Virus record (IMG/VR): IMGVR_UViG_3300029182_000005
Location: 1-23,954 of that record
Length of the DNA: 23,954 nucleotides
From: a virus
Strand: one strand, 5' to 3'
Numbering within the stretch: the stretch's first letter is position 1; every line of letters starts with the position of its first letter. Under the pieces are notes generated by a model. That model had not been told where the DNA came from. It saw only the letters and a list, made by a program, of their open reading frames with translations, and did not search any database. This document shows, piece by piece, positions 13,204 to 17,117 of this stretch. The translations under genes and the position numbers were made by a program.

Positions 13204-13785
13204 CTATATATATTTTTTCCTATTATGAGAAATGGATACTCTATATTTTTTTCTATCTTTATCCCACTGTACGCCCCTTATCCCAGTGGTATTATCTTTT
13301 CTTAATCTTTGGTTTCTAGCTTGTGTGGTCCTGTTTTCCCAAACGCAATTTCCTTTATTATAACCCTTGTTGTTATCTTTTCTTTCGAGAGTGTGTTTTT
13401 CACTTGGTTTTTTACCCATATCAACAATGAAGTTCGCAAATGTTTTCCATCTTTCACAAACTTTTATTCCTCGTGCACCGTAATATTCATAATCAACATT
13501 ATTAGTATTTTCACAACGTTGCATCATAGCCGCCCATATATGATATTCTGATGTTTTCGAACTTAAACCGTGTATTTTACTCGCTTTTGATGTTCTTTCT
13601 CTTTGTAAGCACCCGCAACTTTGGGTATATCCACTTTTCAACTTGGAAGCAACTACTATTGTTTCATTCCCACATTCACACAAGCACCTCCAAATAGCTT
13701 GCTTGTGTTTGTTCGACCCTTCTCTTTGAATAACGGTCAGTCTTCCACACTTCTTTCCCGTTAAATCCAGAGCAACTTTTTTCAT
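13204..13785 (-). pseudogene. HNH/AP2 homing-endonuclease-like gene, AP2 domain cut by a frame lesion
   Basis: The product starts MKKVALDLTGKKCGRLTV with GGGAGG 8 nt upstream; an upstream in-frame ATG at 13812 lacks a good SD. A zinc-ribbon-like part (CLCECGNE, SCGC) is followed by a degenerate HNH region (EYYGARGIKVCERW, HTLERKDNNKGYNKGNCVW). An AP2 DNA-binding domain (TTGIRGVQWDKDRKKYRV) stops after KKYI. Past the TAG, a frame displaced by two bases reads GLFENKNEAIEERKQAE and ends at 13124, exactly the expected end of an AP2 domain. One extra TA in the TATATATA run (13205-13212) explains the break; the restored protein would be 219 residues. Such free-standing genes spread by homing. It splits TerL from portal without damaging either. 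A truncated but active protein cannot be excluded. Confidence 0.8.
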
Positions 13786-13788
13786 ATT

Positions 13789-13807
13789 AACAACCTCCCA
13801 GATTGTT
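13789..13807 (-). promoter_or_regulatory. RBS hairpin of the HNH/AP2 gene
   Basis: On the minus strand AACAATC and GGTTGTT pair (7 bp, one G-U) around the loop TGGGA. The SD GGGAGG spans loop and stem, so part of it is masked. Similar RBS hairpins limit expression of phage homing endonucleases from readthrough transcripts; that comparison is from general knowledge, not homology. Confidence 0.45.
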
Positions 13808-13819
13808 CCCATTCAAATA

Positions 13820-13876: not shown

Positions 13877-13885
13877 ATTATATCA
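13877..13885 (-). promoter_or_regulatory. Extended -10 promoter of the HNH/AP2 unit
   Basis: Minus strand TGATATAAT is a perfect extended -10 element (TGn plus TATAAT), overlapping the TerL stop codon. No TTGACA-like -35 is present at 17 bp (GGGATT there), as is usual for extended -10 promoters. Expected initiation is near 13870-13872, the start of the structured leader. Confidence 0.6.
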
Positions 13886-15235
13886 TATTTTCAGTCTGAA
13901 ATCCCTTGTGTTATCTACGCACAGATACTGAAACATATCCGTGGTATGATCTGATTCCTTAACCACACGAGGATTATCAGAATTGAGTGTTTTCTCATCC
14001 CATTGATATTTTTTATGTTCTTCGATAAAGATATCGTTACTATCAGAGTGTTTCATGTCGATTGGATATGGATTTTTAAGATAATAAAAACGCCCCTGCG
14101 CTAATAAGTCATGGACGTAATCAATCATATCAACTTTTTTCTTCTTGCTAACAGGTTTTAAATGCTGGCGATAATCTTTATAATACTGATTTCTAAGCGC
14201 GGCTTCTGCGCTGTCAATCGTTCTATTGATGATGCGTGCTCCTTGCCAATGCGGTTGTTTAGCTGTTCGAGTGATAAATGTATTAAGGTCTTTAGATAAG
14301 TCGCTAGGAGCTTTCTTTTCGACTCTACCCTCTGGACTATAGTAATAAGTATTTAATAAGATGACTTTACCTTTAGCTGTTAAACCAAAGAAGCCGTGTG
14401 TTGTAGCTGATACTGAGTGACCGCCATCTGTTGAATAATAAAGACCAATAATACGATCGTCTGTCGGTATCTCGTCTAACGGCTTGAATAAATTCATATT
14501 GTAGACGTTTGTACCAAGTCCAACCGATTCACCCAGATATAGATATCGATAATAGTCATAATCATTGCGCTTGACTCGGTTAATATCATCTAGCATCTGT
14601 TCGGTGATAAAACCTAACGTATCATCTTTATAACTTGATTCATGCACTAAGTAGCTATCTTCACCAACAAAACCATCCGCCCACTCATTTATCCAACTAT
14701 AAGGATTTCTAGGCGGGTTATAAGACCAAAAGAATTGCACGAACGGTGCTTTTTCGTGTTTCTGTCTCATAAACGTTACGTTCGTTTGATCAAACTCTTC
14801 CTTGTCGTTAAATTCCGCGGCTTCTTCGTACCATACCGCAATAATGTGATTTATGTCGTTTGATTTAAGTTTCTCAAACTGATCTAGGCCGTAAAAATAA
14901 AATGTTGAGCCAGTCCGTTTATGCGTTATCTTAAATGGTGCAACTGTTGCTTTAAACTGCGCTGACAGTCCAAACATATTAATGGCCCACTGTATTTTAT
15001 TAAAGACCGAGTCTCTAATAGTACTAGCCACTTTACGTATTACAACAACATTAGCTTTATCGCCATTTACAATATACAAAATCATCATAAACACTAGCTT
15101 TAAAGCAATAACTGATGATTTAAACGAGTTACGACCGCCTTTTAGTATGTTGTAAGGTTTTTTTGAGAGCCACACACTTTTAAAATGAGGATTGACATTC
15201 TTTTGTACATTAAAGACAACTTTGTTTTTAATCAT
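13883..15235 (-). CDS. terL: Terminase large subunit
   Basis: A 450-residue packaging motor. The ATPase part has a Walker A-like LKGGRNSFKSS (about residues 31-41) and Walker B IIAVWYEEAAEF (about 131-142). A nuclease domain begins around YYSTDGGHS, with INRTIDSAEAALRNQYY and a Lys-rich KKKKVDMIDYVHDLL further on. It cuts concatemers and pumps DNA through the portal. I chose ATG at 15235 (MIKNKVVFNVQ), which has GGAG 8 nt upstream and overlaps the TerS stop by 8 nt; an in-frame start at 15277 would overlap TerS by 50 nt and lacks support. The C-terminus looks complete despite the HNH/AP2 insertion right behind it. Confidence 0.94.
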   Translation of the reverse strand: MIKNKVVFNVQKNVNPHFKSVWLSKKPYNILKGGRNSFKSSVIALKLVFMMILYIVNGDKANVVVIRKVASTIRDSVFNKIQWAINMFGLSAQFKATVAPFKITHKRTGSTFYFYGLDQFEKLKSNDINHIIAVWYEEAAEFNDKEEFDQTNVTFMRQKHEKAPFVQFFWSYNPPRNPYSWINEWADGFVGEDSYLVHESSYKDDTLGFITEQMLDDINRVKRNDYDYYRYLYLGESVGLGTNVYNMNLFKPLDEIPTDDRIIGLYYSTDGGHSVSATTHGFFGLTAKGKVILLNTYYYSPEGRVEKKAPSDLSKDLNTFITRTAKQPHWQGARIINRTIDSAEAALRNQYYKDYRQHLKPVSKKKKVDMIDYVHDLLAQGRFYYLKNPYPIDMKHSDSNDIFIEEHKKYQWDEKTLNSDNPRVVKESDHTTDMFQYLCVDNTRDFRLKI

Positions 15236-15992
15236 CGTCATCACTCCAAGCATCAACAATGACGATATCCTCAACAACTTGTCCTTGTTCTTGCTTAATG
15301 CGCTCAGCTTCTGCCTTAGCTTTATCTATGTTTGTTTGCATGTACTCAAGTTTGAGTTTTCGCTCGTCATCTTCGTGAGTCATATCAACGAATTGCCTTA
15401 TGGATGTTCTTAATTCTGATATAGCTCTACTCTGAGCATTTAAGAAACTAGCTTGCCTTTCCCACGCAAATTGAAACTCCCATTCTTTTTCTTTAGTATC
15501 GTTGAAATCAGATGAAACCTCTTTTATTTTCTTTAACTCTTTTATCATTTCACCTTTGCTTTCAACAAACATAATCTTCTGAGACCTGACAATAGCAGCG
15601 TATTGTATTTGTATCTGATCCCAAAGTAAATCGGCAGGATCGTCTTTATTCATCATGCCCATAATGTCGAGTGTGTCTTGAGGAATGTACTTACTAAAGA
15701 AACCATGCTTAACTGCTGCAGTGTTCCGTTTTGTGAATTGATTCTTAGGATTCGGGTTGCCACTCCTTGTTTTCCTTGCTTTAGATGTAGCTTTATTTTT
15801 TGCATCTTTATCAGAGGTTGCAACCATCTTACTTTTGGTTGCATCCTTTTCATTAGTTGCATCCCTTGACCAAGATTCACGACTTTTACGACTTTTTAAT
15901 GTACCGAGCTTAACATCATGCTTTTCAGCTAATGCCTTTAAAGTAATTTTACTGTTTTCCCATTCTTGTCTAACTGCATCCCAATTAGCCAT
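15228..15992 (-). CDS. terS: Terminase small subunit
   Basis: A 254-residue protein. The N-terminal HTH (WDAVRQEWENSKITLKALAEKHDV, then LGTLKSRKSRESW) matches phage terminase small subunits that recognise the packaging site. A Lys/Ala/Thr-rich linker with repeats (DATNEKDAT, DKDAKNKATSK) leads to GNPNPKNQFTKRNTAAVKHGFFS. A long coiled-coil oligomerisation region follows, ending in an acidic tail DAWSDDDD. SD GGAG lies 9 nt from ATG. It is the first gene of the packaging operon, yet only 33 nt separate it from the terminator of the lipoprotein unit, with no promoter in between, so it must be reached by readthrough. Confidence 0.9.
   Translation of the reverse strand: MANWDAVRQEWENSKITLKALAEKHDVKLGTLKSRKSRESWSRDATNEKDATKSKMVATSDKDAKNKATSKARKTRSGNPNPKNQFTKRNTAAVKHGFFSKYIPQDTLDIMGMMNKDDPADLLWDQIQIQYAAIVRSQKIMFVESKGEMIKELKKIKEVSSDFNDTKEKEWEFQFAWERQASFLNAQSRAISELRTSIRQFVDMTHEDDERKLKLEYMQTNIDKAKAEAERIKQEQGQVVEDIVIVDAWSDDDD
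15817..15864 (-). repeat. Direct repeats in terS, candidate pac site
   Basis: Three copies of a 9-mer, GTTGCA(A/T)CC on the plus strand at 15817, 15838 and 15856 (spacing 21 and 18 bp), with a weaker TTTGCATCT near 15800. They encode the repetitive linker just after the TerS HTH. Headful-packaging phages commonly carry pac inside the small terminase gene, so this is a reasonable candidate; the assignment is inference. Confidence 0.35.
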
Positions 15993-16026: not shown

Positions 16027-16053
16027 AAAAAAGCACCCAATTTAGGATGCTTT
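16027..16053 (-). terminator. Intrinsic terminator of the lipoprotein unit
   Basis: Minus strand AAAGCATCC, 6-nt loop TAAATT, GGGTGCTTT: a 9-bp stem with one T-G wobble, ending in a run of six T. It lies 12 nt after the lipoprotein stop and 35 nt before terS, so it separates the accessory gene from the late operon unless it is read through. Confidence 0.88.
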
Positions 16054-16064
16054 AAAAACTTCTA

Positions 16065-16532
16065 TTATTCAATCATGTTTCTTATTCCAACTGGCAATTC
16101 TCCCTCAAGATATTCATCAGACAATTCCCTAATGATTATGCCAGATTCATAAGCGCTATCGTATGCTGATTCTGTCTCTCCTAATAATTCATAATTAATT
16201 GTATCAAGTAAATGCTCTGATAGATCAATTAACTCACTTACAGCATTAGCGCTTGATTCATAATTATCTTGAATATCAATTACTGCTAAATTAATGTCTG
16301 TTATTGCTTCGTTCAATTGATTATTCTTTTGTTCGTTATTAGCGCTTGTCGTAAACGCCAAAGAATACTTTCCTGTTATTTGGCTAAGATACATTTTAAC
16401 AGCCGTGTCTGTCATTTCTTCTTTTTTATCAGTTTCAGTTGCGGAACCGTTACTTGTCGATTCAACTTCTCCGCTATCAGAACAACCTACTAACAAAACG
16501 GCAGTTAATAAAACAAATAATAATTTTCTCAT
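16065..16532 (-). CDS. Small predicted lipoprotein (moron-like)
   Basis: A 155-residue secreted lipoprotein: MRKLLFVLLTAVLLVGCSDSG is a lipoprotein signal peptide with lipobox LVGC, predicting cleavage and lipidation at Cys16. A Ser/Thr/Glu-rich linker (about residues 17-40) is followed by a helical acidic domain. The start at ATG 16532 has AGGAGG 7 nt upstream; an in-frame start six codons earlier has none. The gene has its own consensus promoter and terminator and lies between the late regulator and terS, the hallmark of a moron. A role in superinfection exclusion or host-surface change is plausible, as known for some phage lipoproteins, but nothing in the sequence proves it. Confidence 0.82.
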   Translation of the reverse strand: MRKLLFVLLTAVLLVGCSDSGEVESTSNGSATETDKKEEMTDTAVKMYLSQITGKYSLAFTTSANNEQKNNQLNEAITDINLAVIDIQDNYESSANAVSELIDLSEHLLDTINYELLGETESAYDSAYESGIIIRELSDEYLEGELPVGIRNMIE

Positions 16533-16632
16533 GCAAACACCTCCTACCACAATATTACATTAACGTACTATTGTTAGCAATACGTTTCGGGTAGAAGGGT
16601 TATCGTGTGACTGCCTGGCCGTTCCTATCCCC

Positions 16633-16662
16633 AGTATAATCTTGCGAATTTCACTTTGTCAA
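16633..16662 (-). promoter_or_regulatory. Consensus sigma-A promoter before the lipoprotein gene
   Basis: Minus strand TTGACA (16657-16662), an 18-bp spacer, then TATACT (16633-16638). Expected start near 16626, giving a leader of about 95 nt to the ATG with a hairpin (AACGTA/TACGTT at 16562-16586). The -35 element is part of the last units of the adjacent 9-bp repeat array, which points to control by a protein bound there. It may serve the lipoprotein alone or, with readthrough, the whole late operon. Confidence 0.7.
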
Positions 16663-16715
16663 AAGTGACATATATGGCATATTTGTCATATTTGGCTGAT
16701 TTGGCATTTTTGACA
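16653..16715 (-). repeat. Seven tandem 9-bp iterons next to the late regulator gene
   Basis: Read on the minus strand from 16715: TGTCAAAAA, TGCCAAATC, AGCCAAATA, TGACAAATA, TGCCATATA, TGTCACTTT, TGACAAAGT; consensus TGNCAAATA with no gaps. The first units encode the C-terminal CQKCQISQI of the regulator protein and its stop codon; the last two units overlap the -35 of the lipoprotein promoter. A likely operator array for the adjacent ArpU/RinA-like regulator, by inference. Confidence 0.65.
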
Positions 16716-17117
16716 AATATGATTAAGTAGATCATCTTTAATTTCGCCTACTTTGTAATGACTTGTACCTAAATGCGACGCTATACTCCTAAACGACATC
16801 CCGTCCATCATACAATCTAGCACCGTCAGTTGTCTTTCGTCATCAACATAATCTGCAAGACTTTCAACAAACTCGACATTGCTCTTAAATTTGATATAAC
16901 GCTCATACTGACGTTTTTCACGCTTGCCTAAGTTATCTATCTCAGCTTTGCTTTTAACACTCGTGTTGCTTTTAGGTAGCGTTGCTTCAATGCCGTATTG
17001 TGTTGTTTTAACACCAGTCGGCCCATCAATCTTATTTAAGATTCTCTCTATACGAGAACATTCTTTTGATTGCCAGTTGTAATCATAGATAAGCTTTTGT
17101 AATTGATTCTTATTCAT
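16686..17117 (-). CDS. Late transcriptional regulator, ArpU/RinA-type HTH
   Basis: A 143-residue protein with N-terminal MNKNQLQKLIYDYNWQSKE and QYGIEATLPKSN segments, and a C-terminal sigma-70 region 4-like HTH (about residues 92-135: DERQLTVLDCMMDGMSFRSI, ASHLGTSHYKVGEIKDDLL). This architecture and its place just before the packaging genes are those of phage late activators of the ArpU/RinA group, which switch on terminase and structural genes. The start overlaps the upstream small gene (ATGA). The extreme C-terminus CQKCQISQI is a triplet repeat produced by the 9-bp iterons embedded in the coding sequence, so the binding-site array and gene end share DNA. The exact subfamily is not certain. 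Confidence 0.75.
   Translation of the reverse strand: MNKNQLQKLIYDYNWQSKECSRIERILNKIDGPTGVKTTQYGIEATLPKSNTSVKSKAEIDNLGKREKRQYERYIKFKSNVEFVESLADYVDDERQLTVLDCMMDGMSFRSIASHLGTSHYKVGEIKDDLLNHICQKCQISQI

Follow-up and report, generated by a model that had tools for sequence, protein, structure and literature searches.

The seven tandem 9-bp repeats that run from the 3' end of a late-regulator gene into the promoter behind it were found in the window, a 23,954-nucleotide stretch of the viral record IMGVR_UViG_3300029182_000005, and by sequence comparison they are very probably the DNA operator of the LtrC/phi13-Ltr type late activator that the overlapped gene encodes. In favour of this reading, phi13 Ltr is homologous to the window regulator, and the phi13 repeats and the ltr gene are both needed for late-promoter activity (PMC13123087). 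The layout is of a kind already described, to which the window phage adds a further example, and what deserves attention is that the repeats keep their pitch and phase across relatives, not the single locus. The features concerned are the following (relatives are cited by locus handles beginning with L):

16686 to 17117, minus strand: 143-aa regulator of late transcription, phi13 Ltr / LtrC type (phrog_1058), from its phrog_1058 match and the hhalign comparison with phi13 Ltr
16656 to 16718, minus strand: seven gapless 9-bp repeats, probable operator, from the repeat scan, TRF, and the pitch and phase kept in relatives
16657 to 16662, minus strand: -35 element TTGACA inside array unit 7; TTGACA/TTGACT with an 18-bp spacer also in L017 and L018
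16633 to 16638, minus strand: -10 element TATACT, kept in L017 (TATACT) and L018 (TATAAT)
16611 to 16632, minus strand: conserved G-rich discriminator / transcript start GGGGATAGGAACGGCCAGGCAG; a similar motif follows the -10 in most relatives
16065 to 16550, minus strand: predicted 161-aa lipoprotein, first gene after the late promoter, with a signal-peptide-like start and a lipobox-like LLVGCS
16027 to 16053, minus strand: terminator-like hairpin between the lipoprotein gene and terS, a 9-pair stem followed by a T run
15228 to 15992, minus strand: terminase small subunit (terS), first packaging gene of the late operon (NF040601, 158 bits; phrog_509)
13883 to 15277, minus strand: terminase large subunit (terL; PF04466/PF17288; TIGR01547)

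Read on the minus strand from 16718 to 16656, the array consisted of the gapless direct repeats ATTTGTCAA AAATGCCAA ATCAGCCAA ATATGACAA ATATGCCAT ATATGTCAC TTTTGACAA (consensus ATATGCCAA), with 6, 6, 4, 6, 7, 3, 7, 7 and 5 of the seven units agreeing in the successive columns; in the register of the first-pass annotation (TGNCAAATA) it runs exactly from 16715 to 16653. A scan for seven adjacent 9-mers placed the window-wide peak here, at a mean pairwise identity of 0.688, a score reached by none of 300 dinucleotide-preserving shuffles of the window under the same scan (shuffle maximum 0.513), and TRF independently detected the array with period 9 and the top score in the window (53). It is the strongest 9-bp tandem in the window, and the seven gapless units described earlier were thereby confirmed. 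No second copy was found in the remainder of the 31,882-bp record (L095), the array being present once, at the late promoter before terS.

Units 1 to 3.5 are coding and specify the C-terminal CQKCQISQI and the stop of the regulator gene, whose 3' end reads ...ATT TGT CAA AAA TGC CAA ATC AGC CAA ATA TGA, so that the tail given as CQK-CQI-SQI in the first-pass annotation was right; the TGA lies within unit 4, and about half of the array is non-coding. The other end of the array does supply the -35 box of the next promoter, as had been stated: TTGACA (16662-16657, in unit 7) is followed after 18 bp by TATACT (16638-16633), an 11/12 match and the best promoter within 2.5 kb, the weaker 9/12 matches in that interval occurring at chance level. 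The view that a probable operator sits in the 3' end of the regulator gene and is fused to the late promoter is supported.

The regulator is predicted to consist of N-terminal helices and a C-terminal sigma-region-4-like helix-turn-helix (HTH). It matched phrog_1058 (E 1.2e-21), as did phi13 Ltr (E 2.5e-59), and hhalign paired it with phi13 Ltr at a probability of 99.5 (97.6 with a larger alignment); a search with phi13 Ltr also found the annotated LtrC of phage 55-2. No match was obtained to Pfam, to the RinA model TIGR01636 at E up to 0.1 or to the ArpU model TIGR01637, and the hhalign probability with phi11 RinA was only 2-4; TIGR01636 was matched by 3/35 relatives (best E 1e-7), and the match of relative L009 to TIGR01637 fell below the cut-off. 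Profile searches gave no link to RinA or Alt. The first-pass label "ArpU/RinA-like" was loose: both NCBIfam models missed the protein, which falls in phrog_1058. The generic sigma-70 model TIGR02937 (sigma70-ECF) matched 32/35 family members (E up to 0.01, best E 5e-12), the window regulator itself giving E 0.002, below the cut-off. In a monomeric AlphaFold model (mean pLDDT 79, residues 31-52 poorly predicted) the HTH resembled the sigma4 structures 8jzt, 3vfz and 3vep, with target-normalised TM of 0.7-0.8, high probability and a Foldseek E >0.1; sigma region 4 domains were among its closest solved structures, and the likeness is read as a resemblance. Comparison by eye of array unit sequences with HTH residues revealed no simple code.

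The statement that no described case has this layout was not supported: the four phi13 Ltr repeats lie in the 3' coding end of the gene (PMC13123087), and 2638A and 55-2 LtrC are further cases. In phi13 the late genes are driven by P23, which requires Ltr; at its 3' end the ltr coding sequence has three perfect 18-bp repeats and a 9-bp partial one. P23 activity is lost when these repeats are deleted, and late-promoter activity is likewise lost when ltr is mutated (PMC13123087). Read directly, the phi13 repeats (ACAGTTCGG ACACATCGT and so on, period 18) have ACA..TCG in common at 9 bp, giving 7-8 half-units. Both phages have a phrog_1058 regulator gene directly upstream of the late promoter; repeats with a 9-bp sub-period, totalling about 63 bp, span the 3' end of this gene's coding sequence and lie immediately before the core promoter, and the phase of the GNCA cores to the -10 box is equal within 1 bp. 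In phi13, however, two 9-bp unit types alternate to form the perfect 18-bp repeats, the unit sequences differ from those of the window, and the array stops upstream of the -35 box, whereas the last unit of the window contains it.

Directly after the stop of Staphylococcus phage 55-2 LtrC, which PMC13123087 and the record annotation identify with the family IV Ltr of Quiles-Puchalt et al. 2013, there are four 9-bp units, AAATGACAA AAATGACAG AAATGACGA AAATGACAC (ATGACAAAA type); the gapless AAATGACAA/AAATGACAG are close to window unit ATATGACAA and likewise precede a TATAAT-type promoter and terS, although they number four and lie 3' of the stop, as opposed to seven starting inside the gene. ORF020 of Staphylococcus phage 2638A (L259), a homologous gene, has a perfect CAATCAACA 9-bp tandem inside its 3' end as the window has, but of another unit and wholly coding up to the stop; no experiment on these repeats was found in the literature searched. 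The CAATCAACA repeats filling the 3' end of ORF020 are likely a slippage hotspot that would alter both operator length and protein tail. Similar short arrays were present in BE21 and StB12.

Outside the family, the late activator gene (alt) of Lactococcus phage TP901-1 also has tandem repeats behind it, ahead of the late promoter; there are four of them, imperfect, at -76 to -32 (PMC13123087), but their pitch is 11 bp and Alt lacks detectable homology to the window regulator. RinA of phi11 and LlgA (gp66) of Listeria phage A118 share gene position and late-activator role with it, yet belong to other PHROG families (phrog_36, phrog_248); the TGGCA-type repeated motif 3' of these genes comes in about two copies about 11 bp apart, with no significant array.

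Homologues from viral contigs and phage records were dereplicated at 75% protein identity to 39 loci, and the repeat lag was measured from stop-100 to stop+60, with 117 segments from the same loci as controls. With shared ancestry handled by dereplication alone, the best lag was 9 in 30/39 loci and 18 in 4/39, against 13/117 and 3/117 of the controls, and the mean z at lag 9 was 3.54 in the loci versus 0.38 in the controls, where lag 9 was not special; 5/39 loci had neither a lag-9 nor a lag-18 maximum, and phiRS7 had none in the same test. The 9-bp pitch, which the first-pass annotation had set against the helical one, is a real trait of this regulator family. The units themselves vary by lineage (AATATGCCA, AAGACAAAA, GAAAATGCA, ACTTTGGAC, CATGTTACA, TTTGCACAC, TTGACGAAT, CAAATGACA), and so does the placement of the array, which lies before, across or after the stop codon; it is 3' of the stop in L009, L010, L011, 55-2 and BE21, and wholly or nearly so in L094. 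Just 3' of the stop in L094, GTACAAAAA repeats are followed by GTTACACAT repeats, two back-to-back tandem types, both of about 9 bp, which suggests array turnover or two operators.

The phase of the repeats was assessed in 26 loci dereplicated at 65% identity and having an assigned -10 box (picked by eye in six; three loci without a clear -10 were excluded). The GNCA cores, several of which may come from one locus and are then not independent, lay at 4, 5 or 6 modulo 9 from the -10 in 69 of 80 cases, and their periodicity statistic was 48.5 at period 9, followed by 17.9 at period 10. They were positioned 22, 31/32, 40/41, 49/50, 58/59 and 67/68 bp before the -10, mostly 4-5 modulo 9, phi13 included, while the stop codon was found anywhere between 64 bp upstream of the -10 and 3 bp inside it; many prophages of the set have a TAAAAT -10 box that includes the TAA stop. 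By locus the phase was 4 in the window, 5 in most relatives, 6 in L008 and about 3 in L009 (the last two differing by 1-2 bp), and on these values a strictly identical phase was rejected. Core phase relative to the -10 is a strong regularity, reported without a formal P value. The refuting condition set in the first-pass annotation, homologous phages that keep regulator and promoter but show no repeats, failed: relatives retain 9-bp arrays whose phase follows the -10 box. An array that may stand before, across or after the stop points to selection on the DNA and not on a peptide tail, and units and placement that vary at a near-constant phase to the -10 argue for an operator at the level of DNA, to which an activator carrying a sigma-region-4-like domain would bind as an oligomer.

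On such an operator, the C-terminal HTH would read one TGNCA-type core per 9-bp unit, and adjacent protomers would touch to form a short cooperative oligomer that extends as far as the -35 box and, in the window, across it. With a protomer placed against polymerase at the -35, the oligomer would help the host sigma-A RNA polymerase to work from a -35/-10 pair whose spacer, at 18 bp, is long, and would switch on the packaging, head, tail and lysis genes; that this amounts to a "feed-forward" switch, as the first-pass annotation called it, is something we infer. As a matter of arithmetic, each 9-bp step places a protomer about -51 degrees from its neighbour, and seven units make 63 bp, or six turns at 10.5 bp. 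A more speculative suggestion, which we consider doubtful, is that the pitch is a fixed geometry in which the protein polymerises along -35-like TGNCA cores as a left-handed spiral, one full turn over seven units, holding a protomer in a defined position to the polymerase and leaving the unit sequence free to change as long as pitch and -10 phase stay the same.

A G-rich motif with four or more GG tracts, of the GGAGGCAGGACGGGGAGGC type (GG-N-AGG-N-CGG-N-GG or GG-N-AGG-N-AGG-N-CGG-N-GG), lies just 3' of the -10 in most of the loci L015-L093, and was missing from phi13, the Streptococcus GXN2 phage and the Staphylococcus IME1354 phage. This conserved transcript start bears on the alternative that the array loads the regulator onto the polymerase as a lambda-Q-like processive antiterminator, only modified polymerase passing a leader terminator. 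The order of gene, promoter and terminator recalls Q-pR'-tR' of lambda; a hairpin with a T run (-12 kcal/mol or better) occurred at most 300 nt from the -10 in 20/41 loci, the frequency being 1.3% in shuffles and 9% in upstream control segments, and the window has one at 16053-16027 (-12.5 kcal/mol when RNAfold is run on the 40 nt around it). Against this, roughly every second locus has no such hairpin, the hairpins may simply stop early-operon read-through, and in phi13 a short promoter fusion is already under the control of the activator (PMC13123087); the antiterminator is improbable as an account of the array. The G-rich motif and the leader hairpin could both be part of a Q-like antitermination step, and for the downstream hairpins, which late transcription must pass, antitermination and early-operon insulation are both possible. 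Terminator-like hairpins within 300 nt of the -10 were noted in L018, L019, L022, L029, L044, L059, L060, L065, L087, L008 and L012.

Still less probable is that array and G-rich motif are not a transcription operator but a pac/cos site, where packaging starts, or an iteron for replication, even though the array looks iteron-like, adjoins a conserved motif and lies just upstream of terS, a frequent place of pac/cos sites. The array keeps phase with the -10 box, the ORFs closest to it belong to the early operon or encode terminase and include no replication initiator (a replisome-organiser gene lies 5 kb from the array), and the combination of regulator, array and motif is found beside unrelated terminases, one of PF04466 type in the window and one of TerL_ATPase/TerL_nuclease type in L005; the packaging-site reading was dropped on the occurrence of the motif with two unrelated terminases. 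The search of phage records for the motif at genome ends, made with cos sites in mind, gave nothing useful.

There is very little likelihood that the repeats are kept for the Cys/Gln-rich tail CQKCQISQI as a 3-residue repeat (e.g. for metal binding or oligomerisation) with the DNA periodicity as a by-product: a 9-bp pitch is divisible by 3, the repeats are read in frame and relatives have similar tails (SQKS, DKKDKSDKK), but half of the window array is non-coding, the arrays of the six phages listed above stand entirely or almost entirely behind the stop, and phase tracks the -10 box and not the stop codon. Neutral replication slippage in an AT-rich stretch, suggested by the perfect, recent-looking arrays of 2638A (9-bp) and phi13 (18-bp), is just as hard to credit, given control segments in which lag 9 is not favoured, pitch and phase that persist across regulators of 20-50% identity with different units, and the loss of promoter activity on deletion of the phi13 array (PMC13123087).

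In Gram-positive temperate phages, packaging and lysis are under the control of late activators, whose operator grammar has so far been described phage by phage. If the array is an operator, the rule drawn from the survey, a 9-bp ladder with GNCA-type cores about 4-5 modulo 9 upstream of the -10, irrespective of the stop codon position, predicts the operator and late promoter of an LtrC-type phage from its sequence. It also raises the structural question of how a sigma4-like protein assembles on a pitch below the helical repeat and still activates polymerase; comparison with Alt, which has the same role at an 11-bp pitch, could show how pitch sets activation geometry.

The gene order of the window fits the LtrC / phi13-Ltr type (regulator, late promoter, then terS) with one lipoprotein gene in between. 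This gene (16065-16550, minus strand), which separates the late promoter from terS, was found among the loci compared only in near-identical phages; judged from that distribution it is likely a recent cargo gene, possibly acting in superinfection exclusion. The rest of the record (L095) contains ORFs for a CI-like repressor and for an integrase, as judged by sequence alone, so the window phage is probably temperate. Between the portal gene and terL, the minus-strand ORF at 13204-13812 encodes a 202-aa protein that reads like a homing endonuclease of the HNH/AP2 type.
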